Below are positions 5,133 through 60,814 of a stretch of 64,000 bases of DNA, piece by piece. Under the pieces are notes generated by a model. It was not told where the DNA came from, did not search any database, and saw nothing but the letters and a program-made list of their open reading frames with translations. The translations under genes were made by a program, and so were the position numbers. Position 1 is the stretch's first letter, and each line of letters opens with the position of its first letter. Source of the stretch: Salminus brasiliensis (lineage: Eukaryota; Chordata; Actinopteri; Characiformes; Bryconidae); NCBI RefSeq assembly GCF_030463535.1, contig NC_132878.1, positions 91,963,007 through 92,027,006 on the forward strand. Reading direction: 5' to 3'.

Positions 5133-5236
5133 AACATTTACATTTACGGCATTTAGCAGATGCTCTTCTCCAGAGCGACTTACAAAAGTGCTTCACTATT
5201 TACCCAAGAAAAACCTCAGCTAGTTAGAATAGACTA
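5133..5236 (-). mobile_element. Inverted L2-like LINE 3' tail
   Basis: Sequence ATTTAGCAGATGCTCTTCTC through CAAGAAAAACCTCAGCTAG is the reverse complement of the terminal tail seen in plus orientation at 12830-12925. Two tails of one family therefore meet end to end at about 5133. Confidence 0.7.
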
Positions 5237-5245
5237 ATAGTTCTA

Positions 5246-5672
5246 AATTGAATGAAAGCACAAGGTAGGTGTTTCTGATAAAGTGGCCATTAAATGGAAG
5301 CACAAGGTAGGTGTTTCTGATAAAGTGGCCATTAAATGGAAGCACAAGGTAGGTGTTTCTAATAAAGTGGCCAGTGAGTGGAAGCACAAGATTGGTGTTT
5401 CTAATAAAGTGGCCAGTGAGTGGAAGCACAAGGTAGGTGTTTCTAATAAAGTGGCCAGTGAGTGGAAGCACAAGATAGGTGTTTCTAATAAAGTGGTCAG
5501 TAAATAGAAGCACAAGGTAGGTGTTTCTAATAAAGTGGCCAGTGAGTGGAAGCACAAGGAAGGTGTTTCTAATAAAGTGGCCATTAAATGGAAGCACAAG
5601 GTTGGTGTTTCTAATAAAGTGGCCATTAAATGGAAGCACAAGGTAGGTGTTTCTAATAAAGTGGCCAGTAGC
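5246..5672. repeat. Minisatellite block A, unit about 42 bp, 10 copies
   Basis: Ten tandem copies of a unit with core GTGTTTCTAATAAAGTGGCC joined by GAAGCACAAGGTAG-type text. The step between successive GTGTTTCT motifs is 42 bp throughout. Because 42 is a multiple of three, both strands show long open frames (minus strand LATLLETPTLCFHS repeats); these are by-products, not genes. Each unit carries AATAAA on the plus strand. Confidence 0.95.
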
Positions 5673-6440: not shown

Positions 6441-7512
6441 AAAGGTATTTCTAATAAAGTGGCCAGCAGGTGGACGCACAAGATAGGTGTTTCTAATAAA
6501 GTGGCCAGTGTGTGAAAGCACAAGATGGGTGTTTCTAATAAAGTGGCCAGTAAGTTGAAATATTAGTAGATGTTTCTAATAAAGTGGCCAGTGTGTGGAA
6601 GCACAAGGTCGGTGTTTCTAATAAAGTGGCCAGTGTGTGGAAGCACAAGGTCGGTGTTTCTAATAAAGTGGCCAGTAAGTTAAAATACTAGTAGATGTTT
6701 CTAATAAAGTGGCCAGTGTGTGGAAGCACAAGGTGGGTGTTTCTAATAAAGTGGCCAGTGTGTGAAAGCACAAGGTGGGTGTTTCTAATAAAGTGGCCAG
6801 TGTGTGGAAGCACAAGGTGGGTGTTTCTAATAAAGTGGCCAGTGTATGGAAGCACAAGGTAGGTGTTTCTAATAAAGTGGCCAGTAAGTGAAAGCACAAG
6901 ATGGCTGTTTCTAATAAAGTGGCCAGTGTGTGGAAGCACAAGGTGGGTGTTTCTAAAAAAGTGGCCAGTGTATGGAAGCACAAGGTGGGTGTTTCTAAAA
7001 AAGTGGCCAGTGTATGGAAGCACAAGGTGGGTGTTTCTAATAAAGTGGCCAGTAAGTAGATGTTTCTAATAAAGTGGCCAGTGTGTGGAAGCACAAGGTG
7101 GGTGTTTCTAATAAAGTGGCCAGTAAGTGAAAGCACAAGGTCGGTGTTTCTAATAAAGTGGCCAGTAAGTGAAAGCACAAGGTCGGTGTTTCTAATAAAG
7201 TGGCCAGTAAGTTAAAATACTAGTAGATGTTTCTAATAAAGTGGCCAGTAAGTTAAAATACTAGTAGATGTTTCTAATAAAGTGGCCAGTGTGTGGAAGC
7301 ACAACGTGTGTGTTTCTAATAAAGTGGCCAGTGTGTGGAAGCACAAGGTCGGTGTTTCTAATAAAGTGGCCAGTGTGTGGAAGCACAAGGTCTGTGTTTC
7401 TAATAAAGTGGCCAGTAAGTTAAAATACTAGTAGATGTTTCTAATAAAGTGGCCACTGAGTGGAAGCACAACGTGTGTGTTTCTAATAAAGTGGCCAGTG
7501 TGTGGACGTACA
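6441..7512. repeat. Minisatellite block B, unit 41-43 bp, about 26 copies
   Basis: About 26 further copies of the block A unit. Two unit types occur: one with GTGTGTGGAAGCACAAGGT and a diverged one with AAATACTAGTAGATG (6552, 6680, 7205, 7246, 7420). A shortened unit of about 28 bp lies at 7050-7078. The last copy runs into GTGGATGGTGAGTGTAAACG. No coding function is supported. Confidence 0.95.
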
Positions 7513-7779
7513 AGGATACAAGTGGATGGTGAGTGTAAACGGAAAGAAAACTGTGGCTCCTTGGATAACATTTCACGGTCAGGACACACACACTTATTTT
7601 GTAGGATAGTAACTGTAGCCCCAGAGCTGTTTTCCATTGGCTGGAAGTCGGAGATGCTCAGCCGGATTGAAGGGATTAAACATTTCCCCTGCGTTCTCAT
7701 CTCCTGAATCCCCTGCCCTGGCCATTATGATTTCCATGCACTGGCCCAAGGCCATGTCCTCCACTGGGCCGGTGTGTGT

Positions 7780-10362: not shown

Positions 10363-13300
10363 TCATTTATAAAAAACGAGAGAAGAGAACATTATGATGT
10401 ATCCTGGATCCCTGGTGGGATTGGGGTTCCGGCCGTCATAGAGTCCGAAGTAGAGGATCGTATTGGACCCACTCATGTTCACCTGCAGGGAGAGAGATTG
10501 TAAGAATCAGGTAGTCAAATCAGTTTAGGAAAGCAAAGTTAATCAGTGGTGCAGTTTACCTTCATTAGAATGGTTAAACCTGCCAAAAGTCTGCCCCTCC
10601 TTTCCTACTCCTACATATCTGTTCCTAGGTTGCCAATTATTCAACCCTAAAACCAACATTCACTAATAAAAGGATTTGTTCATTTTCTACTGTCCACCTT
10701 AAAAGTCTCTTCCAATGCCATGGCCTTTCCCATGCTTAGCGCTAGGATTGCTGGAGTGAATGACCCAATGGGCCCGCCCCCCTTAGTTGGTGCCTATGCT
10801 ATGGAATCAGGTACACCAGGCAGGACCAACCCTCCAAGGTCCAATTCAGCTCTTTCTAATAACTAGTTAGAAGTGTTTACTGAGGCAAGCTGCTACAGTG
10901 CGCAGCGTTGTGGCCACTCCAGGCCAAAACTACACAGACCACCACCACCTATGCACCCTTACTGCGGCTTTCTGTGAGGACATGGCAGATGTAAGTAAAA
11001 ATGCATGTGTGTTTATGTAACTCCTCACTGAGCTTCATAATGATTGGCATCTGAACTGAGCCGCTTTTAACAAGGGGCAAACTGTGATGGCTAGACGACT
11101 GTGTCAGAACATGTCCAGTACATCCGGCAGGTCCTGTAGGGCGTTCCCGGTATACAGTGCTCAGTGCCTACCAAAAGTGCTCCAAGGAAGGACAACCAGT
11201 GGACCAACAACAGGGTCATGGGTACCCAAGGCTTACTGATGCTCATTGAGGCCTCACCTCACCAACTTCTGAGGCAGATACCAGAGGATGATTCAGAGCT
11301 GGTTCGGTGGCACAAGGGGGACCTCTACAATATTAGGCTTTAAGGTGGTGGTAATGTTATGGCTGATCGGTGTATATAAATGATGAGGCCAATATCAAAG
11401 TGTGGCACAGGCAGAGCCTGGGGTTTCTTGGCCTGCAAGTCTGCACGTTTTTTACGTCACCAAACGGGTAGACTTGGAGTTAGGACCACAGGGCTAGGGG
11501 GGGCTTAGAGGTCTTGGCTCCCCGCTGGTTTTCAAACAGATTAAACAGACAGCCATAATAAATCACACAAGTAATAAAGACACACAATGATGCAATGTGA
11601 ACACTGTCTACACTGTTGAAATCTGTCTCTGATACCCTAATCCAGCATGAGATGCCCGGAGCTCAGAGCGTGTCTGGAACAAATGGGAGTTTATTGGGCT
11701 TCACAGAGGCTCATTAAAGCCACCTCTTAATCCAGTGGCCAAAAGGCACTTCATTCAAAATCCGTCTGAGCCTGACTCTCAGAACATCCTCTTCTATCCT
11801 ACAGCTTTGGATTAGGAGCAAGTACTCTTAGAACCCACTCCCTGACATCCCCGTACTTCTCTACCTGCATGTTCCAACTCCCAGTTGAAAATGTGACCTC
11901 ATTGGCTTTGGTTGCCCGGGTGCAAATTTAATAAGCCAGAAAATGGGCATTTCCCAGTATCTGACAGCACTCCAAAGACATTTTTACATTTACATTAGAG
12001 ACTAATTAAGCAGTCTGCTCCTCCTGCACCTGTGGAGTGATGTCGATCCTCCATGGGTTGACCTGCAGCCCGTCACACCAGCCACCACGGCCATACAGCC
12101 AGGTTCCGTGTTCATTGGGCACTCCTCCCTCACCGACTCGCAGCGCACAGCCCAGAGCCGATCCTACACGAACACAGATAACATTTCAATCACTTTACTT
12201 CACATTTTGTTTTTATTTTGAGGAGAATTCGATCTAGAATTGAGACACAAGCACCAGATATCTCTCGTCTCTCGTCACTTCAAGACTTGACTACTGCAGC
12301 TCTCTTCTGGCTGGTCTCCCTTTGTGCACCATCAGGCCCCTGCAACTTATCCAGAATGCAGCGGCACAGGTCGTCTTCAACGTTCCTAAATTCAGCCATG
12401 TTTATCTCCTCCACTATAGCGGTCTCTCTTCACTGGCTTCCTGTAGCTGCTGCCCACATCAGATTCAAACCCCTGACACTGGTCTACAAAGCCAAGAACA
12501 GACCAGCTCCCCTGAACTTGATGGCAATGGTCAAAAGCCGATCTGCACCAAGAGCCCTTCCAGCTTCAAGTACGGCTCGGCTCGACCCACCATCCCTCAA
12601 AATCCACGGAAGACGAGCGTCCAGACTTTTTTTCTGTCCTGCACCAAAGTGGTGGAACGAACTTCCCCTGGGTGTCCGAACAGCAGAGTCCAACGCTCGC
12701 TGTCCTCAAACGCAGACTGAAGACCCTCCTCTTCTGAGAGTACTTGGGCGAATAGCAGAGTACTATGGTCTCCTTATTGACTTGTGTTTAGTAGAGTCTA
12801 AACTTAGAGGACCTTTGAATTTTTAGTCTATTTAAACTAGCTGAGGTTTTTCTTTAGTAAATAGCAAAGCACTTTTGTAAGTCACTCTGGATAAGAGCGC
12901 CCACTAAATGCCTTAAATGTAAATGTAGATATTGTATTGTGTTAAGTGAAATAGCTGCAGCTAAATGAAGCTATATGGGGAGGGACCACCCCTGAACCTA
13001 GCCTGCAATAATAATGTAATAATAAGGTTCATTTTCAAATAAATGTGGTTTGCAAGAGACACATTAACATAAGTATTCAGTTTCTGAGCTGTGGATGTCC
13101 AAGTTAACAAACATGACCCAACAAGCACTTCACTGGCTTACAATTGGCCTCCGAATGAGCTGCAGAGTTTAGAGTCTGGAGTGAAGGTGCGCCGGTCAAC
13201 AATGCCAAGAGCTCTAAATACAACAGACCTGCTTGGTGGGAAAACCAACTAAAATGTGTGATAAGGTTTTGGGTCAGATAAGACCACCAAATCTACAACG

Positions 13301-16300
13301 CTGTGTGTAGCGTCCATTCCTCAACACTCCCAAAACTGAAGAATGCCTGGATGGTGCAAAACAAAGATGCTGCAAGCTTGGGAGAAACCTCACCTTTCAG
13401 AAGAGCAACGATCCCAAGCACAAGCCCAAACCCAAACACCACATGAGCGGCTGAACAAAGAGGTGAATTTTAAACACATCAACTTATGGGTCAAATTCCA
13501 GATCCAAGAGTCCAACTCACCAGCGGAGTCGAATATGCGAGAGTTGTTGTAGACATTGTTGACGAGGAAGTAGTGTGATGTCACACAGAACTCGCAGCAT
13601 GCATTATCATCACTGCCGTGGCCGGTGATTACGGCGTACAACTCCACCTGCACAACACACATACAAACAACACACCTACTAGCCCCTCTTTTTGAAGAAT
13701 TCCATATACAAGTAGAGTCAATACACAAGACTTCAAACTCATGGAATTCAAGCTTCTAACCATTGAAATCCATGCAGAAAAGCAGCAGAGAGAAACGAAA
13801 GCCCACACTAGTCAGTCACCTTCTTGGCTGAAGCTGGAATATCAAACTTGATCTCCTGGAATCTCTTGTTGTAGTCCCGGTCAAACGTCCCACCGTTGTA
13901 CAGAGAGACCAGCTTGAACGGGTACAGCTTCTCTGAGGAGTTTCCTGCACAATAAGAAACGATTACACTTGGATGGAAGAGTCAAGGCTGCCAAAGACCC
14001 ATTCCTCTCCCAGCGTCCTCAACGACACTGTGGTCTATATGTACATCCAGTGGTTGGACAGCAGTACTGAGAGCTGCCACTAACCATGAGACCTTCAGTC
14101 CACACTGCTACTTGGTACTACAGGTCACATTAATTAGATCAGATAAGAAGGTACATAGAATGGCATGCAAAGGTTTGGACACCCACAAGATTCTTTAGTT
14201 TGGGGACCCTGCATGATCAGTACTTAGCAGTATAGCATGTAAACACTTTGTAGCAGCTAAATGTTTAAATATCCCTGAGCACCCCATTTTTAAAAAAAAA
14301 TCCCCCATATTTTAACTCTAATTTAATTATTATTTTTTTATGGTGTATTTTAATATTCTGGGAAAAATGTGTGGGGGGGCTAACATGCTGGGGAATATAT
14401 ACACACTAAACTCCACTATCGGACTCAAAAACTGGCACAAACACATTAGCAGCAGATCCTTAGTTCTGCAAGTTTTGAAGTGGGGCCTCCATGGTTGGCA
14501 TCAATGAGCCTTAGGTGCCCATGGACCCTGTCGCCAGTCCAGAGGTTGTCCTTTCTTGGACCTCTGTTGGTTTGGGTCTGATCACTGCATACCAGAAACA
14601 CCCAACAAGACCTGCCTGATGTTTTGGGGATGCCCTGACCCTGTCGTCTAGCAGTCATATTTTGGTTCTTGTCAGAGTGTCTAAGATTTTTATGCTTGAC
14701 CAGGTCATGTTTGTCATGTTTTTATAACTTTCAAGAACTGACTGTTCACTCGCTGCTTAATATGTAGGTGCCACACCTTAACAGACGCCACTGTAGCTGA
14801 AGATAATCATGTTTTTGGCAAACAAGCATAATAAATAGGTATCCAAACTTTTGCATATGACTGTACCTTCGAGAATTGTGTTTTTAATAATAATAGAAAG
14901 TGTTAACTGACTGAGAATTCCGCAAATGCTCAGTGCTTCCTGTAACGCAGTAAACGTGGTGGAAGCCAGTGGGTTTCTGTTCCTTTCTCAATACTGAGAA
15001 ATGCGTCCCTCGCAGAGACAGAGATTAGGCTGCGGTTTTCCTTTAAAATTGAGATCTCAGCCAGTCTGATTCAACTGCATTGTGCTCCTCACAACCAACA
15101 GCAAGTCTGCAGCCCTGCTCTCCTCTCTGAGAAGGACAAATTGGTGTAATCTAACAATTTACTCCCATCATACCCCTCCTTTTGAGGACCTCCTGGAGGG
15201 CTACTGGAACACTGTGAGCTTCAGCCTGGCTGCATATGAAACTGTAATCCTCTGAAGTTGACCGTAAGAGCAACCCGAGAGTTTTCCAGAAAATTCTCCT
15301 AACCATCCCCCAAACTGACATGCGCCATAACTGCTTAACAAGCTGTATTACTCAGGCCTGCATGTTGTTTATTGTTCACAGTGACCGATTTACACTGATG
15401 TTCTGACCCGAGCGACGGAAATCACCAAGTGATTAGTCAAGGCTGGGCTGTTCTGACCTGAGTTGTTGCTATGGCTGAAACGCAGATTCAGGGACGTCAT
15501 CCAGGGCATCGCCCAGGGAACAGTCTTCATCGTCAAGGAACAGCGCTTGCCGTTCAGCAGTGCAAGGAGGGGCGACACATCCGTCAGCCAACGGCCTGTA
15601 CCTCTGCCAAAACAGGGACGCGACAACAATAAGGTCTTAGGATAAACCACTACCTTACATAAACCACTACCTTCACTACATACATACATATAGGGTGGAC
15701 TTTTTGCAAGAACCTGGAAATACACGACACAATTTTAGGAAGTTTGTCCTTCACCATCATGTGTTTAAAATCTGAGTAAAATAAAAGGTTACTGCTAATC
15801 CAATCAGAACATCTGAATCTGAATACAGAGCACAACACTGCTATCTAGCAGACTGGGTCAGACACCAATCTTTACATGAATATTACTCATTGAAAATCAA
15901 TACCACGGGGGCTCCGAGTGAGTAGTCCAGCAGCCACCATGACCCGGGGATCCCAGGTCATGCTCCCTGCCATCAGCAGCTAGAGCCCTAGAGAGTACAG
16001 TTGACCTAGCTCTCTCTGGGTGGGCAGATGGCTTGCTCTCTCCTTAGTGTGATGTGGGCAGCACAGTATTACATGTGATAGGGGGAGAGTATGAACGAGT
16101 GGGATGGGTAATTGGCTATAAAAAAAGTTATAATTGTATACTGTATCTGAGGATAAACACAGTATTGCAAAACATATCACCCTTTTTTAATATTTTCGTA
16201 CACCCCCACTCAACAGACCTGCTGTAAAAACAAGACTGAAGTCAAAGCAAACTTCCACCTTCATTCTGGGACTGATATTCCAGTTTGTAGCTAATAGGGT

Positions 16301-19300
16301 TACCATTACAATCACACAACATTTTCATCACGGTCAAATCCCACTCTCTAGCAACAGCTTTCCCCCATCACACAATGCTAATTCGTTATTATGAGGGGAG
16401 AGCAGAGAGAGCGAGGCCAGTTATGCTCTCTAGGACTCCTGCTTACGGATGGCTGTGGCATCACTGGGGATTGAACTTGCCATCTCCGGACAACCAAGCA
16501 AACACCACACTCCTCACTTATATGGAACTTATCAACTTTATGAGGTCACAAAAACCAACACACTTGCATATATCCATAGATATATATTCAGCCTACAGCA
16601 GGTTAGCTCCACCTCTTATGAAGGATTGCCAGGTGAGTTTGCTTTTTGAATGAGGCGCAACACAGCACAGCCAGTCAGAACAGAGCTCATTGACATATAT
16701 ATCCGTCTTGAAGGCACATAACAGTAATAAAGACAGCTTTTTTAATTATAAGGGATAAAAAAGGTGGGAAATGCCAATTGTTTAGTGATTTATAGATATA
16801 GAGTTTATAGAAATTTACATTTACATTTATGGCATTTAGCAGACGCTCTTATCCAGAGCGACTTACAAGATTGCTGGTATTACAGCTGTGGGCCAATGTA
16901 GTGTTAGGAGTCTTGCCCAAGGACTCTTATTGGTGTAGTGCGGCATAGTCACCCACACCGGGAATTGAACCCCAGTCTCCCACATGCTGTGGTAGCTCAC
17001 TGGCCAATAGTGGTGTTTTCTGTTGCGCCACACCAACCACCAACCAAATAATGTATGTATGTATGTTATATATGTATGTTATATATATTAAAATACAGAA
17101 ACAAATTAAACAAAAAAGGAAAATAACTATGCCCTGCAAAATAATGCTATAACAAAGTATAAAAATACATAAATATTGAAATAAAAATAAATAAATAAAT
17201 AAATAAAAACTTTTCTAATGTGTTAAAAGGCCACTAAGAACTGCACAATCTAGTCGTGTTTGAGATGGACGGTCGTGTACCTCCGGAAGGCGGTGATCCA
17301 GCGACCCAGCTCCTGGTTGCAGAGTGGGCTGAATTGGTCACAGCACACGAACAGCTGCACTGTGTGATCCCAATGAGCGCACGTTTCATCCCTGAGGCCA
17401 GGACAGGACAGAGCAGCGTCCAGCTCCAGCACATCGTACCCCAGCAGGTCTAAAAACAGGGTGAGTAAAAATCTGACCACTATTCAACCCAATTTGTCCA
17501 CAGTTTAATTCGGGGGAGAAAAAAAAAAAAAAAACAGGAACTTTTCTTCATTTGGATTAAGATGATTATGAAGACGTTCAGCCTGACCTGGGGGGAGCTC
17601 CACCACAGCCCGGGCCCCAGCCTCCCCCTGCATCAGCACTTTATCAAACACGGGCACCACGTCTGCAGGCCTTTTAACACGTTCCAGCAAGTCTGTGTAG
17701 AAGTCGAACCTGCCGTGCAGAGACAGACAAATGGCTTCATAAACCTCCCTTTAAAAGTTTGCAGAAATCTATGATTTAGATCACTTTATGATGAAACCTG
17801 GCTGAGATAATACGGTAGTCTATTTATGTTCTGAACAATACTGCTGAACCCATCAGTCTCTGAAACTAGGCAAAGATCTTCTTAAAATGACTAAATTACC
17901 CCACATTCTGGGCCAGTAAAAGCGCCAGAGTCTGAAAGCCTATAGGAAATCTATAACTCCGGTCATTTTCACAATGAAACTGCTGAGATGCTGCTTGCCA
18001 AGTGTGTTAAAGGAGACCTCCACCGATTTTTCCACATCTCTTCCTTAATTCATTCGTAAGTAAAGTCATTCAGAGAGGTTTGGAGTGAAACGATCCATTC
18101 CAGACGAACCTGAGGAGTCCGAATTGTTCACAGCAGTGGTGGATAGAGGCAGACTGTAGAGTTTAATCACATCACAGAAGGGTCAACCGTGTGAAATGCG
18201 AATGAATATTCTGTCTGATGCCGCAAACATATATTTGTTGCAATACTTCTCAGAAGAATTTGGGCTAAATTGTGCATTGTAATCCATTCACGCTGGAGGA
18301 CTACATGCAGGGTGATATGAGCAAACATGACGCGAGTCCCCAGATAAACTCTTATTGCAGATCCTGAACACAGCAGGTTATTGTAGATCTGTACAGCATT
18401 ATGGGCAAAATTCAGCGGCGGGTGAATTCTACAGTAAACATTTTACGGTCACAATACGCAATTTTTTAGCAGTTGTTTAGCACACACACAGCCATTTCTG
18501 CAGCACCCAGAGAGCAGGGAGGGTAAAGGGCCTTGTTTAAGGGCCCAGCAGTGGCAGCTTGCCGAGCCCAGTTATCGAACCCACAACCCTGTCAGCAATA
18601 GCCCGGTGATCTAGCTTCATCATCAGTTTGGTGTAGGAGTAACAGGATAGTTACTGGAAAAACGTTGGTGTGTGCGACCATGTGTATAGATAATGTGTGT
18701 TGGTAGCACTAGCTGGCTCTATGTATTTTTTGTAATGTTTCAAAATTTTGAAAATGATACAATAAGTGATTTTCTGTGACAAACAGGGTCTTTGTTTTAC
18801 AGTATGTAGCTAATTATTTTACAGTAGTCTAAACATTACAGTACAGGTTAGTGTGGCGCAACGGATAACACCACTACCTTCCACCATGTGGAAGATTGGG
18901 GTTCGATTCCTGGTCTGGGTGACTGTGCTGAGCTACACTGGGCAAGACTCCCAACACTGCACTGGCCCATCTTTGTAATATGAGTAACCTTGTAAGTCGC
19001 TCTGGATAAGAGCGTCAGCTAAATGCCATAAATGTATTGTACTTACAGCGTTACAGTTTCCCCATCTTTCACCATCATCAGATATAAAACTCACCACCAC
19101 TGTACAGAAATTGATGAGAATTTCCACCACTATGAACCATTTCACATCAAATCCCACAGTTAATGTCTTTTTTTGCCTTCATCTCAAACAGTAAATAATG
19201 TACCACAAATTTTTGCACTTTCAAAAATAGGTTAAATTTCTATGTACTGTTTTACATGATGTGTTAAAAAAAGATAAGAAGGAAAAAAGGTCTATAAGTG

Positions 19301-22300
19301 GTATCTGTTGACATACCACTCAGCCTGCCAGCTAAGGAACCTGAAAGTAGGGTAGAGGAACCAGCCCATCTCTGCCAGTGCCCCCTGCTGGTTTATTGCA
19401 AAGAAGAAGTTTGGAGATGGAGTGACCTGGAATGACACATTCACGGATTTCCCCTTCCTATTAAAACACACAAACACAAGCAGAAGTGAGTCATTAGATC
19501 CATATATAGTCTTCTGTTTAAAAGCCTGGAATCAACACTTTCAGTAATATAAACATGGTGGAGTTTAGTTGTATAACATACTACTATTACACAGGTTTAT
19601 AATAATTAACAGAAGACTACATATAAAACAATACTGAATGACTGAGAAAATGATAAAATCTAAAGATTTTGTCCAAAACAAGCATCTACCCACTAAATAA
19701 TGAGGGGCTGGAGGTGTAAAAACACTAGCATGTGCTTCCTCTAAGACACATCTCTCTAACCTGTCCCTCAGGGTCATTTGACAGCTCAGCCACCATGGAG
19801 GAGGACTAGCCCTGCAATTCTCCTACATCAGCTAAGAATCCGAGGTCTACCCAGGCAAGACATTGAAGTCTAAACTCAAATACAATCTAAATTTCTACAG
19901 AAAACAAATGAGTAAATTAATAAATAAATATAATAAAATCATACTGAAAAAATAAAGGTCTCTAAAAGACTGGCTCCCGAGCCATGCTGCTTTGCCATCA
20001 ACAGCCAGAGTCAGAAAGAGCACAATTGGCCGTTCTCTCATCAGTGAGTAATAAAAGCAACGTTGGCCGGCACAGGCATCTTTTAGCTGGTGAGGTGGAG
20101 CTGGGGACCCGATACTTTCCCCAGGACCCAGAGCGTGTCGGCTGCCTGACTATCCCACATCGGCAGCAGGTTTAAAAAAGGCAGTGGCCAGGTTTGCATG
20201 CATCAGAGCTGATAGGGGAGCTACAAACGGGTGGGAAACTGGCAGTACCAATGTCAGCCTGATGCTGTATGTGATGGCCCAAACTGGCCCAAATCCAAAC
20301 ATGAGGTTTTGTCGGGTCCCCATGTGAGACTACGAGACATCTAAATTGCATTAGCTGAAATCACACTGACTCTCCTGGAATTCCAGACACGGAGGACTAT
20401 TTCATCAGCATTCATCAGATTCAGGTTGTCTAGACACCAGGTTAGATGTTGACACAAGAAAAAAAATTGAAAGCCAAATATGAAACGCCATAAATTCTCT
20501 ACAAATACAAGACATTCAGGTTGTGCCAGGGACTGACTGGAATACGAAAACATTAATAACATCAAGTCATAAATATATATATTTATGATCTCAGCTATTT
20601 TTCAAAATGAGAAATCTCATTCTTTTTAACTGTATTTATGTTTACCTACATCTGTACTAACTTCAGCGCTTTTAAATAATGCGTCCAGATGCCAAAAACA
20701 TCTGCCCACAGTGTTCACAAAGCTCAGTCTCCTCTCTGTGTGTCCAGAAAGCAAAGAGAGCTTCTTACGACAGGGCTTGCACTACAGCAGGTTCGACGTG
20801 CAGCATGGCAGCAGGAATGCTGAGGGTGGTGTCGCAATCATCTCCAACACAGTTCATATCCTGAATAGGGTTTCCAGGTAAGGCGTACACCAGAACACCA
20901 GTAGCATTGGATTCAGACATGGTCTTAATCTGAGGGAGAAACAGATATTTATACATTACTGAGAAGATGATTAAACTGAGGACAACTGCATGAAAACTAA
21001 TTTAGCCACCTCTTTATTTATAGATCACGTTACCTTTGTGAAGAATGAGCAGCCGCCTTCGGACACCCAGGCAACAGCTCCCGCCACTTTGGGGACAGGT
21101 TTACAACCATCGCCCGCTTCAGCTAGAATGTATGGCTTTGTGTCCCAGCGTCCATTCAGCCAGTCGTATCTGGCGTTGAGGCGTTTAGAGATTACCGGAA
21201 CCGCCCACTCTGAAATAGGAGAGCAAATAAGCAGGTTTCCTTACACATTCGAACCCTGACTGTCTAGAGTGAAGCCCTGCATTTAATCCCATGACATATA
21301 TGAATATGGAGTAAAGGAATGGAGTAAAGCGGGCCTCTCACTCCATAGGTTTCCACACACCTTTGCATGGGTGATTCATCAATTAGGGGACATTTCATAA
21401 ATTATCTAAAATATATAATTATTATACGAGATATTATTGCTATTTTAATTATATATGACCATGTATGACAGGTTATAAATTCATGTTAGAAATAATTTTA
21501 CAGAATAAATAGCTTATGTGTTCAACATTTTATTATTATAGAAATATACTGCATCACAATCAGTATGATTTCCAATTTTTTTAATGTTTTAAAACATTAA
21601 CACTTTGCTAATTCAGCCTTGCCCCCAACCCAGACTCCTGAAACGTTCTGTGCCAATAAAATTATGTTTAATAACTTTAATAACTATTTTTTAATATTAT
21701 TTAATATTCATGTTTATATCTATATACTTTAACAATATTTTTGAACAATATAGTAATGTCCCCAACATTACGGTCATTACTGCGACAGTCTGTGATTTCT
21801 ATAAGGAATTATTAAGGTAACACCAGTTTCTGTCGTAACCATGGAAACAAAGACTGACAGGAAAGCACATGTCTGAGATGAGAGAAGAGTGAGATCTTGA
21901 TGTCTGGAAAAGTGAGTAATTTAATCATTCATCATGTACTCCTCATCATCACAGAGTAGAGTAATTCAGCATAATTACCGTTTATACCGTTATGGTAATA
22001 TTTTACAATAAAAATAATGTTGACATTATTTATATGTATTTAAAGTGCATCTTAGCTGTTGAGGAAACCAACAAATTTGCATGCAAGGTATTTAGCAGAG
22101 GCTCTTCTCCAGAGCAACTTACAAAAGTGCTTCACTGTACCTCCAAGCTTGAATACTACTAAATACAGAAGTCTGTTTACGGTCGTAGTTTTTCAGTAAG
22201 TACGGCCAGAAGAAATCAGTAGAGAATACAGAAATGACCTGGATTTCTGCTCTAAGCCAGTGGGTGGGTGGGTGGGTCACTTTATTTATCCCTCAGGGAA

Positions 22301-23310
22301 AGTCAGTTTTTACAGCAGCAAAATCAAACAAGAGAGCAGCATAATAAAGACACTTAAAATAGTAGGAAACAGTAAACCTGACTATAAATACAGCTATATT
22401 AATAAATACAACTATAATATACATAATATACCTAATAATAGAAATTATATAGAAATAAGAAGTACTAGAAAAAGTGATTGCAGTGCAGTAACCACATTAA
22501 TATAATGTAGTGATGTAAGGCATCCTGGGGTATCAGTACAGTATAAGTGATAAACAATAGAGTTTTAAGGTGGCAGTGCAGACGACAGAGCTGCGTGGCA
22601 GTACATAGTGATGAACAGAATAGTGTCCGATTGAGAAACAGCGGGACTGTTTTATTAGTACACTCAGTGCACAATAATGTCCCGGCACAGTGACGAGGTG
22701 CTGTACAGTGAGATCGCTGTTGGGAGAAACGATCTCCTGTACCGCTCCTTGCTGCAGCGGAGCTGAAGGAGCCCGTTACTGAAAGTAACTGTAATTTGGT
22801 CTTCTGTGTTTATGTATGTAATCTGCAGTTCTACACAGCTTCAGCTTCAAACAGTCCAAAATGACCATGAATAGAAGTATGCATTACCTGAAGAGCTGAG
22901 GCCTGTTAGTTTTCCCCCAGTTTGCATTTTATCATAAGCTGGCCAGCTCAGCTCAGCTCAGCTCACTACAGCAATAAAAATTAGCATATGAAGTTAAGAA
23001 GTCCCTCCCTAAGCCAACGTTCTTTGGCTTGAGCACGGCATGGATTTACCTGGAGAAGTGAAAACTTACCTGGAGAAGTGAAAACTGCCTGTGCAAGACC
23101 ACAGTTGTGCCCTCCACAACCCCACGAGTAAAGAACTCTAGGGATCCAGTTCCCCAGCGCATGAACAGGAACAGGAGAGAAGTGCAGTCTGGACAAAATC
23201 TCCTTCCACCTGTTGGGCACAAAATATGTATATTAGATAAATCAAAGGTAAAGGTATTGGTCACTGTACAGCAAAATGTGTCTTCTGCATTTAACCCATC
23301 TGTGGTAGTG

Positions 23311-23353
<43 letters not shown>

Positions 23354-24167
23354 CTGAACTAGGGGCAGTGAGTACACACACCCAGAGCGGTGGGCAGCCA
23401 ACTCCAGCACCCGGGGAGCAGAGAGGGTAAAGGGCCAACAGTGGCAGCTTGCCGAGCCCGGGTATTGAACCCACAACCATGTTATCAACAGCCCAGTGCT
23501 CTAACCGCTGAGCCACCACTGCCTCAGCTAATCCCACCATATATTCCTCATTACTGCCACATCGACAGGTTCGGTAGGCAGCTACTTAAAAAAATTCAGG
23601 TAATAATAGATTATAAAATATTCTTTAGGCAATTCTTTGCTAAACAACAGTTGACAGAAAAAGTCAAGGGTGACAAGTAAGTGAATGGCCTGGGCCACTT
23701 AGCATTTAAAAAGAAATAAAAATAAATATGATAAATTGTAACTACATAAATTAAATACTTACTTTAAAGCATATAAATATTGTTTTGGCATAATTAATTA
23801 ATAAATTGCTTAATTATTAAAGATGGTAAAAGAGTCCCTAATTACAGAATTTCCCACATATCTCCTGCATGTATCCCTCCACAGTGAGTGTGTCTTAAAC
23901 CCAGTAGATTTTAGGCTAAGTATGTATCTCAAAACTCATAAAAAAATGTCTCAAGCATCAGGCTTGAGAAAAAATTATATTATATAAATATTTGCACAAT
24001 GACTTTCTACAAGAAAGCCTTCACGGGCACTGAGTTTTTCCAGATCCCTCTGAATGTCTTTATGTACATATTAATGCCTGAATTATAAGCAACTTATGTA
24101 ATATAGTTGGACTTCCCCTTTAAAAGTGCATATATTAATATACTACCAGGACTAAGACTTTGCTGAA

Positions 24168-24218
<51 letters not shown>

Positions 24219-24726
24219 AAAATGTGTGTGTGAGGCACATATTCTAGTGTTTGTATACAGCATAACCCCCTAACTTAACACACTCCAGACCACACTTCAC
24301 CACCCCTCCCCACAGGACCCCCCACCTGGTCCCGGCAGCTCCATACACCTGCTCCCGCATCCACAGCGCCTGCTCGGCCGCTGAATCATCCATGGAGAGA
24401 AAGAGCACCTGGGCGCTGGGTGGGAGAAACTCGGCCAGGTCCGTGAGGGACATGTTGGACGTCCACAGGCACTCCAGAAAGGCCGACTTGTTGGTGAAGG
24501 CGTGGATGATCAGCCCGGGTCTGGAGGAGTCCTGGGGCGGGTAGACGAACTCTCCATCCAGGGTGGAGACGCGGAAAGCTGGGGCAGCGTCCCCGGGGTC
24601 GAAGCCTTCCAGGCCGGCCCGAACACTGCGCAGCTTCGCGGTGGACAACCGCCCCTCCACGGCTGCGATCACGAAGCAGCACAGAAAGACGAACCGCGGG
24701 GACGGTTTTGGTCGAAGGCGAGTCAT
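10363..24726 (-). CDS. Secreted PNGase F-type amidase-like protein, 12 exons, 653 aa
   Basis: Exons, each with AG/GT borders: 24726-24326, 23209-23070, 21209-21034, 20929-20769, 19457-19317, 17709-17588, 17449-17281, 15603-15458, 13944-13820, 13647-13521, 12163-12030, 10482-10363. Phases agree at every junction and the total is 1962 nt, 653 residues plus TGA. Residues 1-25 are a signal peptide (FVFLCCFVIAAVEG). Residues 40-180 resemble a peroxiredoxin/thioredoxin fold without the CxxC pair. Residues about 240-293 resemble a protease-associated domain. Residues about 345-653 align by eye with both jelly-roll domains of bacterial PNGase F: CAHWDH (Asp408, like catalytic Asp60), CCEFC (Glu546, like Glu206), ALGC, GWCDGL and a C-terminal GYIIMFSSLVF strand. 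The third acid (Glu118) appears replaced (LTMKT, near Lys463). PNGase F releases N-glycans from glycoproteins; activity here is inferred only. The start at 24726 is chosen because the signal peptide follows it; an in-frame ATG lies at 24786. It may match an unnamed fish gene with a PNGase F N-terminal domain. Confidence 0.9.
11085..11382. mobile_element. MITE-like element, family M2 (partial, intron 11)
   Basis: The right end TGTTATGGCTGATCGGTGTA is the family terminus. Internal text (GGCAGGTCCTGTAGGGCGTT, CCTACCAAAAGTGCTCCAAG) recurs at 31490-31570. No coding capacity. Confidence 0.55.
12225..12925 (+). mobile_element. L2-like LINE 3' end in intron 10 of the PNGase-like gene
   Basis: The longest copy of this family here. 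A frame of 202 codons (12218-12826) covers [17 protein letters not shown], then a LHWLPVAAAHIRFKPLTLVY segment, RRASRLF and a PLGVRTAES segment: the C-terminal part of a LINE ORF2. The tail ends with GATAAGAGCGCCCACTAAAT near 12900. It lies antisense to the host gene. Confidence 0.8.
13330..13500 (+). mobile_element. Possible Tc1 remnant (weak)
   Basis: CAACGATCCCAAGCACAAGC resembles the conserved stretch before the last catalytic region of Tc1 transposase genes. No inverted repeats were identified. It lies in intron 10, just downstream of exon 10 of the minus-strand gene. Confidence 0.25.
14158..14867. mobile_element. MITE-like element, family M3, carrying M2-family text
   Basis: The left end GCATGCAAAGGTTTGGACAC and the right end GTATCCAAACTTTTGCATAT are inverted repeats. 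Inside, 14450-14690 matches (inverted) text of the element at 33540-33650 (AGCAGATCCTT, GAGGCCTCCATG, CTTAGGTGCCCATG), so two elements are nested or fused. Located in intron 8. Confidence 0.6.
15895..16110 (+). mobile_element. SINE-like repeat, family S3
   Basis: GGGGCTCCGAGTGAGTAGTC, then CGGGGATCCCAGGTCATGCT, then CCATCAGCAGCTAGAGCCC and CTCTCTGGGTGGGCAGATGG. Related or inverted text occurs at 16345-16500, 19984-20180, 32316-32650, 32756-32850 and 50805-51015. The inverted copies carry the box-B-like GGGATTTGAACTTGCGACCC, which suggests a tRNA-derived head. Confidence 0.55.
16815..17045 (-). mobile_element. tRNA-derived SINE, family S2
   Basis: Read on the minus strand it has a tRNA-like head (TGGCGCAACAGAAAACACC; B box near GGTTCAATTCCC) and ends with the tail shared with the L2-like LINE (GATAAGAGCGTCTGCTAAAT). 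A plus-strand copy is at 18846-19042. A SINE sharing its 3' tail with a partner LINE is the usual arrangement for borrowed retrotransposition. Confidence 0.7.
18481..18620 (-). mobile_element. SINE family S1, partial
   Basis: Minus-strand copy with GCAGTGGCAGCTTGCCGAGC, CGAACCCACAACCCTGTCAG and AATAGCCCGGTGATCTAGC. The 3' tail is missing. Confidence 0.6.
18846..19042 (+). mobile_element. tRNA-derived SINE, family S2
   Basis: Starts GTTAGTGTGGCGCAACGGAT (A-box-like) with GGGGTTCGATTCCTGGTCTG (B-box-like) and ends AAGAGCGTCAGCTAAATGCC. It lies in intron 5 of the PNGase-like gene, antisense to it. Confidence 0.75.
19984..20180 (+). mobile_element. SINE-like repeat, family S3 (partial)
   Basis: GCCATCAACAGCCAGAGTCA and GAGCACAATTGGCCGTTCTC match the body of the S3 family; the head is missing. 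Confidence 0.45.
22080..22790. repeat. Dispersed-repeat mosaic in intron 2
   Basis: Two pieces: a fragment of the LINE/SINE tail (TTTAGCAGAGGCTCTTCTCC, 22088-22135), then a GTGGGTGG run and an element with TATTTATCCCTCAGGGAAAG near 22275 and CGATCTCCTGTACCGCTCCT near 22729. The TTTATT-ATCCC boundary resembles the repeat end at 29536. No coding capacity. Confidence 0.45.
23046..23085 (-). repeat. Tandem 20-bp duplication containing the exon 2 splice donor
   Basis: TTACCTGGAGAAGTGAAAAC occurs twice head to tail (23046-23065 and 23066-23085). On the minus strand each copy gives CCAG|GTAA, a good donor. Using the first (exon ends 23070) joins exon 3 in frame. Using the second (exon ends 23050) adds 20 nt and shifts the frame to a TAA six codons into exon 3. 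Confidence 0.9.
23243..23527 (-). mobile_element. tRNA-derived SINE, family S1
   Basis: Complete minus-strand copy in intron 1: the tail ACTGTACAGCAAAATGTGTC, a CA run at 23314-23352, CACCCGGGGAGCAGAGAGGG, and the tRNA-like head ending AGCGGTTAGAGCACTGGGCT on the minus strand. It is the best-preserved S1 copy in the window. Confidence 0.8.
23815..24035. repeat. Single unit of the 25.1-26.4 kb repeat family, in intron 1
   Basis: CCTAATTACAGAATTTCCCA, CTCCTGCATGTATC, TTTTAGGCTAA and ATAAATATTTGCACAATGA are shared in order with the tandem array at 25.1-26.4 kb. Confidence 0.7.
24168..24235. repeat. Compound GT/TA microsatellite
   Basis: A GT run followed directly by a TA run and a further GT run, in intron 1 about 90 bp from exon 1. 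Confidence 0.9.
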
Positions 24727-28415: not shown

Positions 28416-29705
28416 ATGAAAACTCTGCTGCTGATGCTAATGCTACTCTCTAGCCTCACACACACCTTCAGCCACGGATACATGGCTCCTGAGGAGGACA
28501 AGTGGACCCACGACAGATATGAGACTGAGGTATTCCCCATTATTTTTCTCTTTTAAGACAAAACGGGCAGTTGGGAAGTGGACAGGAGCAGCACATTTCT
28601 CACATGCATGCTGTGATTTGAGGAAGGAGGTTAGAATTACATTGGAATTATGTTCAATTGAACCTCGTGATCTGTGACTAACAGCAACTATGGGGACTTT
28701 TATAGGCTGGCGTCACTATTTCTTTCTTTTTTTAGATAAAGTAAGTAGGAAAAGTCACACAAATGTTCAAAGGCTCAATATGATTATCTGTGGGTTTGGC
28801 ATACAGAAGGCAAATCAGGCTCTTTCTGAGGATATCTGTATATTCTTCACATTAAAGCTGTAGTATGATGTTTAATGGTAATTAACTGTATTCACAATTT
28901 AATCTGTTTAATATATCTAGCCTATATTATCCTCATTTAAGATAAATAATTAAATAATGAAAGTTTTAATGGTTTACAGGTTTTTCTCACAAGCTTACAG
29001 ATTACCAGAACCATAGATCTCTCATCTAATAACTGTATAAAGTTTTAATGGACACACTTTTGTTGTTTTTTGCTGGAGACCTGGAGACTTAAGCTGTTCT
29101 TTTAATGGCTAATGGCTTTCTAAAAGTCGAATAAATAAATAATGAAAATAATTCATTATAATTAATTAATAAGATACACAAAAATAGACAGCCAGTTGTC
29201 CAAGTTATATCTGAATCTTTCTACCTTACTTTTCTATGTAAATGAAAATAGCAATAGCAGAGTTTTGGTGGGTTTTTCATCCCTGTGCATTATAATGCTT
29301 TACATGTCTGGCTGTATATTAAAGCTGCAGTATAATGTTTAACTGAATGGCTTTCTGAATGATTCAATATTTATCATCCTTTTTTTAAGGTAAAATAATT
29401 AATAGTCTAAGTTTATGTTGTCCTGAACCCCAAGTCTTACTGGTTTACAGGTTATATAACGTAGCATAATATATAATATTTATAATATAGCATAAAAGTA
29501 CCATAGATCTCTCATTTATAAAACTGTAAGTGGTCAAATAAGATAAGATAATCCTTTATTAGTCCCACAGTGGGGAAATTCTCAGTCACTCAGATGCAAA
29601 AACAGAGATAAATTACCACTATATACACAATATAAATAATAGAAGTAAAAAAAGCAATAACAATATTATTTACAGATTATCTACAGGTTATTGCAAATTG
29701 ATCTA

Positions 29706-30989: not shown

Positions 30990-33150
30990 GAACCAACAGT
31001 GGTTCTCCTGTGGCATTTCCCAAAGAACCCTTTGTAGCAGTAGTTGGTGGAACAGTAGACCTGTCCTAGAGACCACCCCGCAGCTTCTTTAGCCTTTTCA
31101 GTGCTATAATCGTGTGTTTTTCCCCTCTCTGCCTTTTAAGATGAAGTGGTCTGATGAACCTGATCTATTGCAGACGATGCTGAAGAGAATGGTGCGGAGA
31201 CCCGACCAGCAGCAGTTCTTCGGTCTAATGGGGAGAAGATCCTCTGGTAAGCAAATGATTGGAGAAGTTCTTCGAAGACCTACAAAATACACTCTCTGAA
31301 CATTCTTTAAGCTGTGGCTAGTGAATATACACTACACTGATCAGCCATAACATTAGTACCGGATAAGAGAAAACATTGTCTGTCTTCATCTCCAGTGGCT
31401 TCATCTGTCTGGTTGTGGATTTATTAGGCAGCAAGTGAACAGTCAGTCCTTGAAGGTGATGTGTTAAAAGTAGGCGACTGGGTCAGAACATCTCCAAAAC
31501 GTCGGGCAGGTCTTGTAGGGTGTTCCCGGTGTGCAGACGTCAGTACCTACCAAAAGTGCTCCAAGAAAGAACAACCGGTGAACCAGCGACAGGGTCCAAC
31601 CAGGGTCTGGTGCCCTAAGGCTCATTAATGTGGCTCATTGATGTGATCCATGGAGGCCTTGGGGGCGGATGTACAGGAGGTAAAGGATCTTCCTGCTAAC
31701 CTTTTGGTGTTTTGGAGTCTTTTGGAGCCTTGAATGGGCTTGAATCAGATAAGTCATAAGGCATAATACCTAATTACAATCTCACCATGTGTACTCCACC
31801 CACCCCTATAAAACTACTATAAATAAGAATGTAAATTAATATCATCAGCTAATATTATTATTATTATTATTATTATATTTTTTATTTAAATAGTTAATTT
31901 TATTCTTTATATATTCAGATGTAATTTTGTGTGCTTTGGCAACTGTAAAAAGGTTGCATGCCAATAAAGTCAACCTGAATTGTGTATATATATATATATA
32001 TATATACACATGGCAGGTGGTACTAATGTTATTGCTGATCTGTCATATGATCTGTCACTTTTGTCATATGATTACAGCAATTTATGAAAAATGGCTGTTT
32101 ATTTGAGGTCTCTGCTTTATTTTCCCAGCGAAATCACAGATAACACGGAAACGTAAGTACAGTCTGATGGTTTTACCTGCATTAGGTATGAAGTATGCTT
32201 GTCTCTTAGTTCAGAGGAGAGCTTCCAGCACAATAATGTCAGTCGTTCATCTGAATTTAAATATCTACCTGTTCATCCAGCATTTTTCTAACAGGGAGCT
32301 CGACCCCCTTTGCTGCAGCCTCTACTCTTCAGAGATAAGACCTAACTGCCAACCATCCCACCCGTTCGTAGCTCCCTCTAGCACTAGAAATGCTCCCGAT
32401 ACTAGGCGGGTGGAAGGACACCAAACTACAGCCGACACGCTCTGAGAAAAGCGCCAAGTCCCAAGCTCCACCACACCAGCTAACAGACACCTGTGCCGGC
32501 CAACACTGCTTAAGAGCGCCCTCTACCCACCCGGAGAGGGCATGGCCACTTGTGCTCTCACTGACTCCGGCTGCTGATGGCAAAGCGGCATGGCTTGGGA
32601 TTTGAACTTGCGACCCTTAAAAAGTGGTAGCGCATTAGACTGCTGAGCTCCAGGCTTCACAATAGTTCTTGGAAAATTGCTGTGAGAATTTGATTGTAAG
32701 GTCAGGTATGGATGCAAACTCATCCCAAGTCTCATCATTCTAAACACTGCAAGTTAAACACTGGGGGCTCCAGCTGATGCTCAGCATCGGATATGGCGAC
32801 CTTAGGTTCCTGTCTGGCTGCTTCAGTGTTCCCATTCAAGCTGTGTGTGTACCATCCCCTCAGTCAGCAATCTTAAAGTGGGAGATTCAGATGGGGTGTC
32901 TAGAAATGTTTGGACACAGTGTATAATTCATACGATGTGAATGAATCATCAGATGTTGAACTTTATTCTCCTTTTCAGGGCAGAAGTTTCAGGCTTTTGT
33001 TGGTCTTATGGGGAAGCGGAGCGTGGAGGGTGGGTGAAGACGTCTTTACTCTCGGCTGTCGATCTTCATGTCTTTGTAGAAGCCGTAGTCGTTGTTAAAA
33101 TTCGGTCATAACCTCTCTTAAATATTCATTTTCTTTTAGGCTCTTTCTGA
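28416..33150 (+). CDS. tac1: Protachykinin (tac1-like), substance P-like and neurokinin A-like
   Basis: Exons: 28416-28529, 31141-31246, 32129-32152, 32979-33029 and 33140-33150, giving 101 residues with consistent phases. If the fourth exon is read through instead, it stops at 33037 after SVEGG. Residues 1-20 are a signal peptide (MKTLLLMLMLLSSLTHTFSH). The second exon encodes RRPDQQQFFGLMGRR: an 11-residue FFGLM peptide, Gly for C-terminal amidation, and a dibasic site. The 24-nt third exon and 51-nt fourth exon, both phase 1, match the sizes of the small exons 5 and 6 of mammalian TAC1. The fourth encodes KR-QKFQAFVGLM-GKR, the neurokinin A position. Such peptides are secreted and act on NK receptors. 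AATAAA at 33267 follows. The usual Lys3-Pro4 of substance P are Asp-Gln here. A tac1 duplicate or tac4 cannot be excluded. Confidence 0.85.
29536..29700. mobile_element. Dispersed repeat end with GATAATCCTTTATTAGTCCC
   Basis: Begins AAGATAAGATAATCCTTTAT, then AGTCCCACAGTGGGGAAATT, and runs into AT-rich text. The same motif forms the loop side of the hairpin at 36516-36611. Lies in intron 1 of the tachykinin gene. Confidence 0.5.
29705..29763. repeat. TA microsatellite
   Basis: About 28 TA dinucleotides in intron 1 of the tachykinin gene. A second run lies at 30940-30985 and a third at 31985-32006. Confidence 0.95.
31327..32045. mobile_element. MITE-like element, family M2
   Basis: Left end ACTGATCAGCCATAACATTA and right end TACTAATGTTATTGCTGATC form the inverted repeats. 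Internal text (GGCAGGTCTTGTAGGGTGTT, GTGCTCCAAGAAAGAACAAC) matches 11130-11200. Lies in the intron between the substance P-like exon and the 24-nt exon. Confidence 0.7.
32316..32650 (-). mobile_element. SINE-like repeat, family S3, inverted copy
   Basis: Minus-strand orientation: GCATGGCTTGGGATTTGAAC and TAGCGCATTAGACTGCTGAG mark the tRNA-like head. A second, plus-orientation fragment (GGGGCTCCAGCTGATGCTCA) follows at 32762-32850. Confidence 0.5.
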
Positions 33151-42900: not shown

Positions 42901-45900
42901 AGATTGATATATTTCATAAAGTGAAAAAATGGACATACAATGTTTTGGGTGACAGTGACGATAGGCGGTTAGAGCTTAAAAATGAAAGAAATTGAACTAA
43001 AAACATACTTTAATCTTTTTCACAAGCTTGTTCTCCTCATCATCATCAGTCTCTGGGAACTCGTAGATTTTGATTTTGTGCTCTTGGATTTCCCGCATGA
43101 TCTAAAAAAAGAAAGAAAGAAAGAAAATTAGTCCCAGTTTTTGGTAACAGCACAAACTCAGGGCCTGTCCAGGCAAAGACAACGCCAAGTCAGGCTTTAT
43201 TCAGTTCTGTGGATTAAAGATGAATCTTGGGAGTTGCTGGAAGATGAGAAGAGGGATGGAAAGATGGTCATTTTTAGTTTAAGAACCCCCAACACAAATC
43301 AGACAGAACAAGAACAAGGCATACCAGGAATGTGTGTTTTTTGTTTTTACATGAAAGTGACTCACACTGCCTTGTAGGTCTGCGTTAGGAATACGTTAGG
43401 GATGAAACAATTTACTTATAATTATATATTTATATTAATATATAAATAGAATAATTTATATATTAATTATATATATATTATGAAAGATATGATTTATATT
43501 ATGCACTCATACAAGCGCAACACACTAACACACAACCACGTCACTGCAGTGCTAAGAATGACCCACCACCCAAATACTACCTGCTCTGTGGTGGGCCTGT
43601 GGCATCCTGTCCATTAAAGAACAGGGTGAAAGGATGCTAACACACACACACATATATATATATATATACACACACACACATACACACACGCACACACATA
43701 AAATATTATATAAAGTTGGAATTAGCAGTGGATATGCTAATAGAAATGCTAATATTCTTCTCCCAAACGTTCCTCACAGAACACAGGTTAGATATAATCT
43801 CTGTGGTCAGGAAGACCAGGTTGGGATTTAGGCCTTTCTCTCCTGCTGAGATAATACTCAAACAGATGGCTCCACACCCACAGGACAGGCAACTCTGATG
43901 CCAACCACACTCCTGAGTCGTATTAGCAATAGATTAGAAGAATTCTAACACAAGTGAGAGAACAGAGACTACACTGTACTATGGACTATAAAAGTATTCG
44001 GACACCTGCTAATTCATTGCTGCTTCTGAAATCAAAGACATATACATATATACACACATATACACATACACACACACACTCGACTGGGACAAGCAACAAG
44101 AGGTTTAGGATGTTGGTGGTGGATCATCACCCCAACTCATTCCAGTATTGGGAGGAGCACCATCATTCTAGAGAACACAGCTCAATGCTGAGGAGCTTTA
44201 AAGGATAAAGGATAAAGGTGCACGTATTCGTCACTGTACAGCGTGGACTAGCCCACACCTGGCAGTAGGGCAGGGTATCAATAGGTTTATGTTTATCTGC
44301 TTCAGAGTGTACTATTCTTTTAGACAAGCTGTGTCGTGTGCGTGTGTGCATTTGCACATCTGTGTCAGCAATGGGCTCAATGTCAAGTAGCTGAGTACAT
44401 TCATTATTAGGAGTGTCCACATATTTGGGCATATAGTGGATCTGGGATGATGTGAAAAAGACAACAGGACCATGTCATTCCAAGAGCTTCACATGATGCC
44501 AAATGTTTTCTTAAAAATAACTAAAAATAAGATGAACTTTCTGTGCTGTACAACTGAGGGAGCTGGGATGAAGAGAGAGTGTGAGTGAGAACCTACCTGT
44601 TTCTTGAACTGTTGGCACTCTTCTGGGGTCAGGGTATCCGCTTTGGCAATCAGGGGGATGATATTCACCTTCTCGTGCAACCGTTTCATAAACTCAATGT
44701 CCAGCGGCTTCAGCCTGAGGGAGAATCACATTGATTGATTTATATTAATGGGTCAACAATGAAGCTTTCACACCAAATATAGGTATAAAAAGGTGTCAGA
44801 CAGACATGTTTTTAAATTTCAGCAGTGATTTCAAACATATACAGCCTTTAATTTCAGGTATACAGGTCTCTATCCAGTCAAGTTGCCAGAAGCCTGGTTT
44901 TGTAGGTTGGCTGGAAAAAAATACACAGGGGCTTTGCCAAGACTGCTGCAGAGTGGGCAGACTTTACAGTTAGAGCTGAAAGCATTATAGAGTCGATACA
45001 AAACAAAGACGAGCCGGCAGTATATCATTAGTGCTCGACTAATGTAAAAACGATCACCAAAGCCCATTTTGAGAAGCTAACATAAAATAAAATAAAAAAT
45101 GTAAAATGATAAAAAGTGCAGATAATTTAGTGCAGTAGGGCAGAGTCACCTAAACATATTTATCTGGAGTTCAATAAACACTTTATTAAACATTCAAAAC
45201 ATGAACGGAAACATTTACTGATGAACATACATCTGTTGATGCTATGCTAATAAACCAATACTAACAAACACATACAAATGTAACTGGGATTAGATTAGCA
45301 TCAGTATTAGGAAGGGGTTTCAATGCAGTAAAATATAGATGGCTTAGTGCAGTCTTCTTCAAGAGTTTAATAAACACAAAAAATCTTAAGGCCTTTTTTC
45401 CAAATCAGCAGTTTTTACACTGATTCCCTTTACATAGGGCTCTTGTTTCGGATCCCGATATCGTCATGTTAACAGCTGGATATCGCACTGTGTAACAGTA
45501 GGGAAAACACAAAATTGTGCAGATCATGTGGTCTCCAGGACTGACTCTGGGACCCAGGGAAACTCTGGTGTAAAACAAGCCACTTGTGAATATCAGTGCT
45601 TTAATCACTGCCTCAGCCAAGAGAAAGCAGCAGTATTCCTGTGAAGCAGAGTTGGCCTGAGGCTGAAATTAAAGTGACCTTTCCTCTTGGCCTAACTGTG
45701 GGTGTGTGTGATTTCCTGACAGTTTTCAGCTGAGATAACAGTTGACCAAAGCTAGCATTATTATAGTCAGCATTCAGAGGCATCAGACACTCGCACCTCA
45801 GCTGAAGGGACATGAACTGACCAAGTAAACCATATCTGTGCACCTTACCATATATATGCACCAATGAACAGGTCTGCTACCTCAGCAGCACTTATATATT

Positions 45901-45942
45901 TGCTCAGTGAAGGTCTATTGCAGAGCACCACTCTTTATTGCA

Positions 45943-45995
<53 letters not shown>

Positions 45996-48103: not shown

Positions 48104-48135
<32 letters not shown>

Positions 48136-60783: not shown

Positions 60784-60814
60784 CTAACACCTACCTCATC
60801 ATATCTCACTGCTT

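Follow-up and report, generated by a model that had tools for sequence, protein, structure and literature searches.

A probable acid peptide:N-glycanase gene, ngly2, in the fish Salminus brasiliensis

The 64,000-nucleotide stretch of the Salminus brasiliensis genome analyzed here (the window; NC_132878.1, positions 91,963,007 to 92,027,006) carries, on its minus strand, a twelve-exon gene (10363-24726; start codon at 24726, stop codon ending at 10363) that, judging by its sequence, is very probably the ortholog of zebrafish ngly2, which encodes the fish acid PNGase (peptide:N-glycanase 2); we put the probability of this assignment at about 95%. The gene is real and complete. Its spliced coding sequence of 1962 nt encodes 653 residues and contains a single, terminal stop codon; exons 2-12 are preceded by AG acceptors, exons 1-11 are followed by GT donors, and the start codon is the first in-frame ATG beyond an upstream stop. 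An earlier reading of this DNA from its letters alone (the sequence-only reading) had proposed twelve exons and an uninterrupted protein of this length, and its coordinates proved exact. The GC content of the coding sequence is 0.56 (0.67 at third positions), as compared to 0.30-0.47 in 2-kb slices of the window, and an AGTAAA is found at 10310, approximately 50 bases downstream of exon 12.

All twelve exons lie on the minus strand. Exon 1 (24326-24726; residues 1-133) provides the start codon, a signal-peptide-like stretch (residues 10-25, strongly hydrophobic), and the start of a Tx-like domain, which continues in exon 2 (23070-23209; residues 134-180) up to the start of a protease-associated (PA) domain, with limits transferred from zebrafish Ngly2. 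The PA domain occupies exon 3 (21034-21209; residues 181-239) and exon 4 (20769-20929; residues 240-292), where Pfam recognizes it (PF02225, residues 213-262), and ends in exon 5 (19317-19457; residues 293-339), which also encodes a C-terminal Tx-like segment and a linker helix, again with limits from zebrafish Ngly2 (PMC12753239). Exon 6 (17588-17709; residues 340-380) encodes linker and the start of PNGase domain N (Pfam), which continues through exon 7 (17281-17449), with W407-D408-H409 placed by Pfam and alignment, and exon 8 (15458-15603), with W467 aligned to zebrafish W480; in exon 9 (13820-13944), by Pfam, the domain N region ends and PNGase domain C begins. Domain C extends through exon 10 (13521-13647; H537 and E546, Pfam and alignment) and exon 11 (12030-12163; ALGC and GWCDGL, Pfam) into exon 12 (10363-10482), which holds its end and the stop codon. 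The codons of D408 (17367-17369) and E546 (13591-13593), also on the minus strand, align with those of catalytic D421 and E555 of zebrafish Ngly2 and, by sequence alignment, the two residues correspond to catalytic D60 and E206 of PNGase F, the enzyme of Elizabethkingia meningoseptica (1pnf, 3pms); the roles are taken from PMC12753239. All motifs named by the sequence-only reading, CAHWDH (404), CCEFC (544), ALGC, and GWCDGL, are present, and the protein contains 8 N-x-S/T motifs. Three 3′ elements of the UnaL2 long interspersed nuclear element were found in the window (5143-5196, 16826-16879, and 18979-19032), two of them in ngly2 introns.

The donor of exon 2 lies inside a perfect 20-bp tandem duplication (23046-23086), which creates a second, identical donor at a distance of 20 bases; splicing at the downstream copy would shift the frame, while the upstream donor keeps the zebrafish frame. 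A degenerating pseudogene or an assembly artefact, which this second, frame-shifting donor might suggest, is nevertheless scarcely credible for a gene with twelve exons, intact splice sites, no internal stop, the zebrafish frame retained by its upstream donor, and a coding sequence of which none of 2000 base-shuffles remained open.

The C-terminal part is of PNGase F type, as had been proposed, with both Pfam models over their curated cut-offs: PF09113 matched residues 510-650 (E = 1.2e-34; 119.5 bits vs. a cut-off of 25) and PF09112 matched residues 365-479 (E = 1.7e-20; 74 bits vs. 22.4). The PA-like region that the same reading had placed in front was recovered marginally over its cut-off (PF02225; E = 4e-5; 24.1 vs. 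23.9 bits), and the NCBIfam matches on this protein were all in the PA region, to models of M36 metallopeptidases, and lay far under cut-off. What had been called a peroxiredoxin-like region corresponds, by alignment, to the Tx-like domain of zebrafish Ngly2, with 92 of 128 residues identical over its main stretch (residues 45-172). The sole CXXC of the protein, at 545, is located in the PNGase domain, the Tx-like part having none.

Among solved structures, a Protein Data Bank search placed nearest 9lwg_A, the zebrafish protein si:dkey-256h2.1 (NP_001373269.1), which matched residues 38-653 with 1041.8 bits and was followed by PNGase F structures at 42-44 bits (best 43.7). Of the aligned residues, 430 of 612 (~70%) are identical, and the two proteins are collinear, with the same order of Tx-like, PA, and PNGase domains; they differ in a loop near residue 484, four residues longer, and the first 37 residues of the window protein are unaligned to the solved chain. 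Honda and colleagues (J Biol Chem, November 2025; PMC12753239) described si:dkey-256h2.1 as Ngly2, the fish acid PNGase, which they cloned, assayed, solved by cryogenic electron microscopy, and knocked out; the family is thus no longer "poorly characterised", as the sequence-only reading had put it, and the gene presented here is another species' member of a kind of enzyme already described from zebrafish. According to that study, the zebrafish enzyme has its optimum at pH 3.5 and virtually no activity above pH 6, forms a homodimer via its Tx-like and PA domains, and is fully inactivated by D421A or E555A, while W480A leaves feeble activity. Zebrafish W420, D421, H422, W480, H546, and E555 correspond to W407, D408, H409, W467, H537, and E546 here, six of six identical. 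The two jelly rolls of zebrafish Ngly2 are described as nearly identical to those of PNGase F (PMC12753239), and the window protein, at ~70% identity to 9lwg, would be expected to contain two adjacent jelly rolls as well.

The transglutaminase core and the PAW domain of NGLY1, the cytosolic PNGase that catalyzes the same reaction as Ngly2, had no Pfam match in the window protein at E ≤ 1, in agreement with the distinction from NGLY1 drawn earlier. The NGLY1 fold differs from that of Ngly2. Elsewhere in the genome, contig C3 has a group of three PAW-domain matches, of which one reads through a TAG; this fish thus seems to carry both Ngly2 and NGLY1-type enzymes, which act in different compartments (PMC12753239).

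PNGase F shares PNGase domains N and C with the window protein, and identity over the domain is 27%. In the sequence alignment, W59-D60-R61 of PNGase F corresponds to W407-D408-H409 and W191 to H537. E118 is a third important residue of PNGase F. The changes at three of these positions (R61 to H409, W191 to H537, and E118 to V465) would fit a catalytically dead protein of PNGase F fold serving as a lectin or scaffold; however, both essential acidic residues and all six named residues of the active zebrafish enzyme are identical here, which makes loss of catalysis highly improbable. Unlike the window protein, PNGase F has no Tx-like or PA domain as described in PMC12753239, and its optimum is neutral to alkaline, in contrast to the acid optimum of zebrafish Ngly2. 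The residue pairing with PNGase F also differs between sequence and publication: the text of PMC12753239 pairs Trp420 with Trp191, and Trp59 and Arg61 with His422 and His546, while sequence alignment pairs Trp420 with Trp59.

We assigned the gene to ngly2 because of its six identical active-site residues, its Tx-like part without a CXXC, the single PF09113 locus found, and the separate NGLY1-type PAW matches. In the 1.07 Gb genome, PF09113 had two matches, which are exons 10 and 11 of ngly2, and no second locus was found among the best candidates, scored exon by exon. Several points weigh against the assignment: a divergent copy could be missed by such exon-by-exon scoring; the N-terminal Tx-like domain had no Pfam match at E ≤ 1; the position of PNGase F E118 is not conserved, being V465 here and A in the active zebrafish enzyme; and the function in S. 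brasiliensis would be transferred from zebrafish at ~70% identity.

If the zebrafish findings hold in S. brasiliensis, Ngly2 would enter the endoplasmic reticulum by its signal peptide, become N-glycosylated, dimerize through its Tx-like and PA domains, and work in acidic lysosome- or yolk-type compartments, mainly in ovary and egg. D408 and E546 would there hydrolyze the bond between asparagine and the innermost N-acetylglucosamine, converting Asn to Asp and releasing a free N-glycan. Substrates would enter the cleft between the PA and PNGase domains and are probably flexible egg glycoproteins, namely hyosophorin and a vitellogenin-derived glycophosphoprotein; the natural substrates were deduced indirectly in the zebrafish study as well (PMC12753239). 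Activity, pH dependence, dimer, localization, expression, and glycan loss on knockout all come from the zebrafish ortholog, and the same may be expected in S. brasiliensis.

The sequence-only reading had called the protein secreted and had suggested that it may act outside the cytosol, for example on glycoproteins of egg or yolk. The former should be qualified: zebrafish Ngly2 carries N-glycans but is found together with lysosomal Lamp1 and shows almost no activity above pH 6 (PMC12753239). The latter is probably correct, as free glycans were greatly reduced, and nearly all lost, in eggs of knockout zebrafish, which were fertile and without overt phenotype and had smaller eggs (PMC12753239). 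An improbable alternative is that Ngly2 is a general lysosomal PNGase for glycoprotein turnover in all tissues and that its work in the egg is just one aspect of this; the broad glycan specificity of the zebrafish enzyme, its lysosomal location, and the presence of some ngly2 mRNA in the adult tissues tested are consistent with this, while the far higher expression in ovary and the absence of an overt knockout phenotype argue against it (PMC12753239).

Other features of the window lie on both sides of ngly2. A signal-peptide-like open stretch (28416-28529, plus strand) and an exon (31141-31245, plus strand) reading ...LKRMVRRPDQQQFFGLMGRRSS were found; the latter contains FFGLM-Gly-Arg-Arg, which we take to be tachykinin-type, and these 35 residues had no Pfam match at E ≤ 0.1. 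Of ten neighbouring open frames scanned with Pfam, three were clear septin exons on the minus strand (44492-44725, 47731-47967, and 51161-51436; about 44492-51436 overall), sub-threshold matches to other families being discarded; the exon at 44492-44725 is closest to Septin-7 among solved structures. Two arrays of a 42-bp tandem repeat lie near each other (5251-5670, ~10 copies; 6444-7515, ~25 copies), and a 163-bp unit is present in ~6 nearly identical copies (98% matches) at 60812-61782.

Relatives of the PNGase domain were sought in 84,980 prokaryote species genomes by two peptide patterns, and the best 80 of 108 relatives were kept; the counts over bacterial relatives given below describe this set only. 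The closest, L001 (Chloroflexota, Anaerolineae; 882 residues), is 38% identical to the window protein in its best segment (E = 1e-61; next relative, 8e-17), and Pfam recognizes in it PA (6e-14) and PF09113, with PF09112 under cut-off (14.4 vs. 22.4 bits). Its N-terminal half matched a model based solely on the two fish sequences with E = 4.1e-13 (best of 200 shuffles, 7.5e-4; database size 1), matches to single segments of the window protein being weaker (Tx-like, 9e-5 vs. 0.0035 shuffled; PA, 2.5e-4 vs. 0.0011). A Tx-like plus PA model, trained on L001 too and therefore not giving an independent E-value for it, had no match at E ≤ 1 among the tested open frames of the other 79 loci (plus-strand frames of >150 residues within flanks of ≤3500 bases, some ended by contig ends). 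A predicted structure of L001 (671 residues, alone) was too poor to judge the Tx-like fold, with a mean predicted local distance difference test score of 39.2 and a predicted template modelling score of 0.31.

Enzymes of this layout are rare in Chloroflexota: PF09113 was over cut-off in 2 of 400 sampled genomes, with a third genome under cut-off, and the same two genomes were found among 396 of the class; both counts include the genome of L001, around which the search was centred. A second Chloroflexota member, L092, aligns along the same layout, its PA domain being placed by alignment, and the plasmid-encoded WP_010889584.1 of Deinococcus radiodurans, described as PNGaseDr (PMC12381499), presents PA (1.8e-12), PF09113 (2.9e-35), and PF09112 (1.4e-5). 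In the D. radiodurans locus (L094, 1-5241), the PNGase gene is flanked by genes for urea transport (urtC-E) on one side and by a gene for a type III polyketide synthase on the other. All three bacterial proteins are 39-41% identical to the window protein over the PNGase domain, and all three keep the catalytic Asp and Glu and the H537 equivalent; at the H409 position each has Tyr, and at the W467 position L001, L092, and D. radiodurans have Tyr, Ala, and Trp, respectively. Their PA and Tx-like stretches are 18-26% identical to those of the window protein, and a Tx-like part is probable in these bacteria rather than demonstrated because its identity is only 19-23%.

In a quick, midpoint-rooted tree built from 72 PNGase domains (of 85 rows, 13 had a matched span outside 200-420 residues and were removed), the two fish proteins fell on one side of a branch together with L001, L092, and D. 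radiodurans, with a Shimodaira-Hasegawa-like approximate likelihood ratio test value of 100. The D. radiodurans row was marked as a long branch and that of L092 as unusual in composition, and the model used to cut out the domains was trained on the window protein, zebrafish, and L001, favouring that group. The rare same-layout bacterial group (Chloroflexota and D. radiodurans) is the nearest relative in this tree, a modest addition. That the Deinococcus enzyme resembles an animal one, from oyster, has already been pointed out (PMC12381499). No description of Chloroflexota PNGases of this layout was found in the open-access literature searched, and the Chloroflexi discussed in PMC8812541 concern another family, DUF2961. 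According to PMC12753239, 58 ray-finned fish and numerous invertebrates have Ngly2 orthologs, and none was found in Tetrapoda; because of this wide spread and the eleven introns, a recent bacterial transfer into this fish was rejected.

PMC12753239 proposes that H422 and H546, described as "uniquely present" near the active site, may explain the acid activity of Ngly2. In the 80 best of the 108 bacterial relatives, the residue at the H546 column is His (60), Trp (19), or Phe (1), while the H422 column, which has an aligned residue in 49 of the 80 (31 having none), contains Tyr (21), Arg (12), Gln (9), Val (5), Thr (1), and Asn (1), and His in 0 of 49; L001, L092, and D. radiodurans have Tyr at the H422 position and His at that of H546. 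Independently, PMC12381499 notes that the enzymes it compared have this second His, from which PNGase F departs with Trp. Because most of the sampled bacterial relatives carry the H546 equivalent, this residue alone is an unlikely cause of acid activity, and H422 would be the better candidate for an acid switch. His beside the catalytic Asp (H409; zebrafish H422) marks the two animal sequences compared at this column, both from fish. With regard to PNGaseL, PMC12753239 cites pH 6.0 as the optimum, while the cited paper gives pH 6 as the optimum for stability and reports more glycan released at pH 7.5 than at pH 6 (PMC12381499).

The oyster enzyme PNGaseCg (Crassostrea gigas), compared here by its published description, is an animal enzyme that, like Ngly2, has a helical spine and a protease-associated module over the active site (PMC12381499). 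It showed "not much activity" in a screening at pH 7.0, for which its authors suggest untested substrates (PMC12381499); such weak activity would also fit an acid enzyme assayed off its optimum. Tentatively, and with the odds somewhat against it, animal Ngly2 may represent a separate Tx-like, PA, and PNGase family, rather than a version of PNGase F, that is shared with scattered bacteria (Chloroflexota and Deinococcus) and may have been transferred between bacteria and early animals, with the Tyr-to-His change at H409 acting as an acid or lysosomal switch and the oyster enzyme having been tested at the wrong pH. By itself, the S. brasiliensis gene adds one more species to those carrying the newly described egg free-glycan enzyme and amounts to routine annotation. 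More useful is the sharper way to test why Ngly2, unlike PNGase F, works at acid pH.

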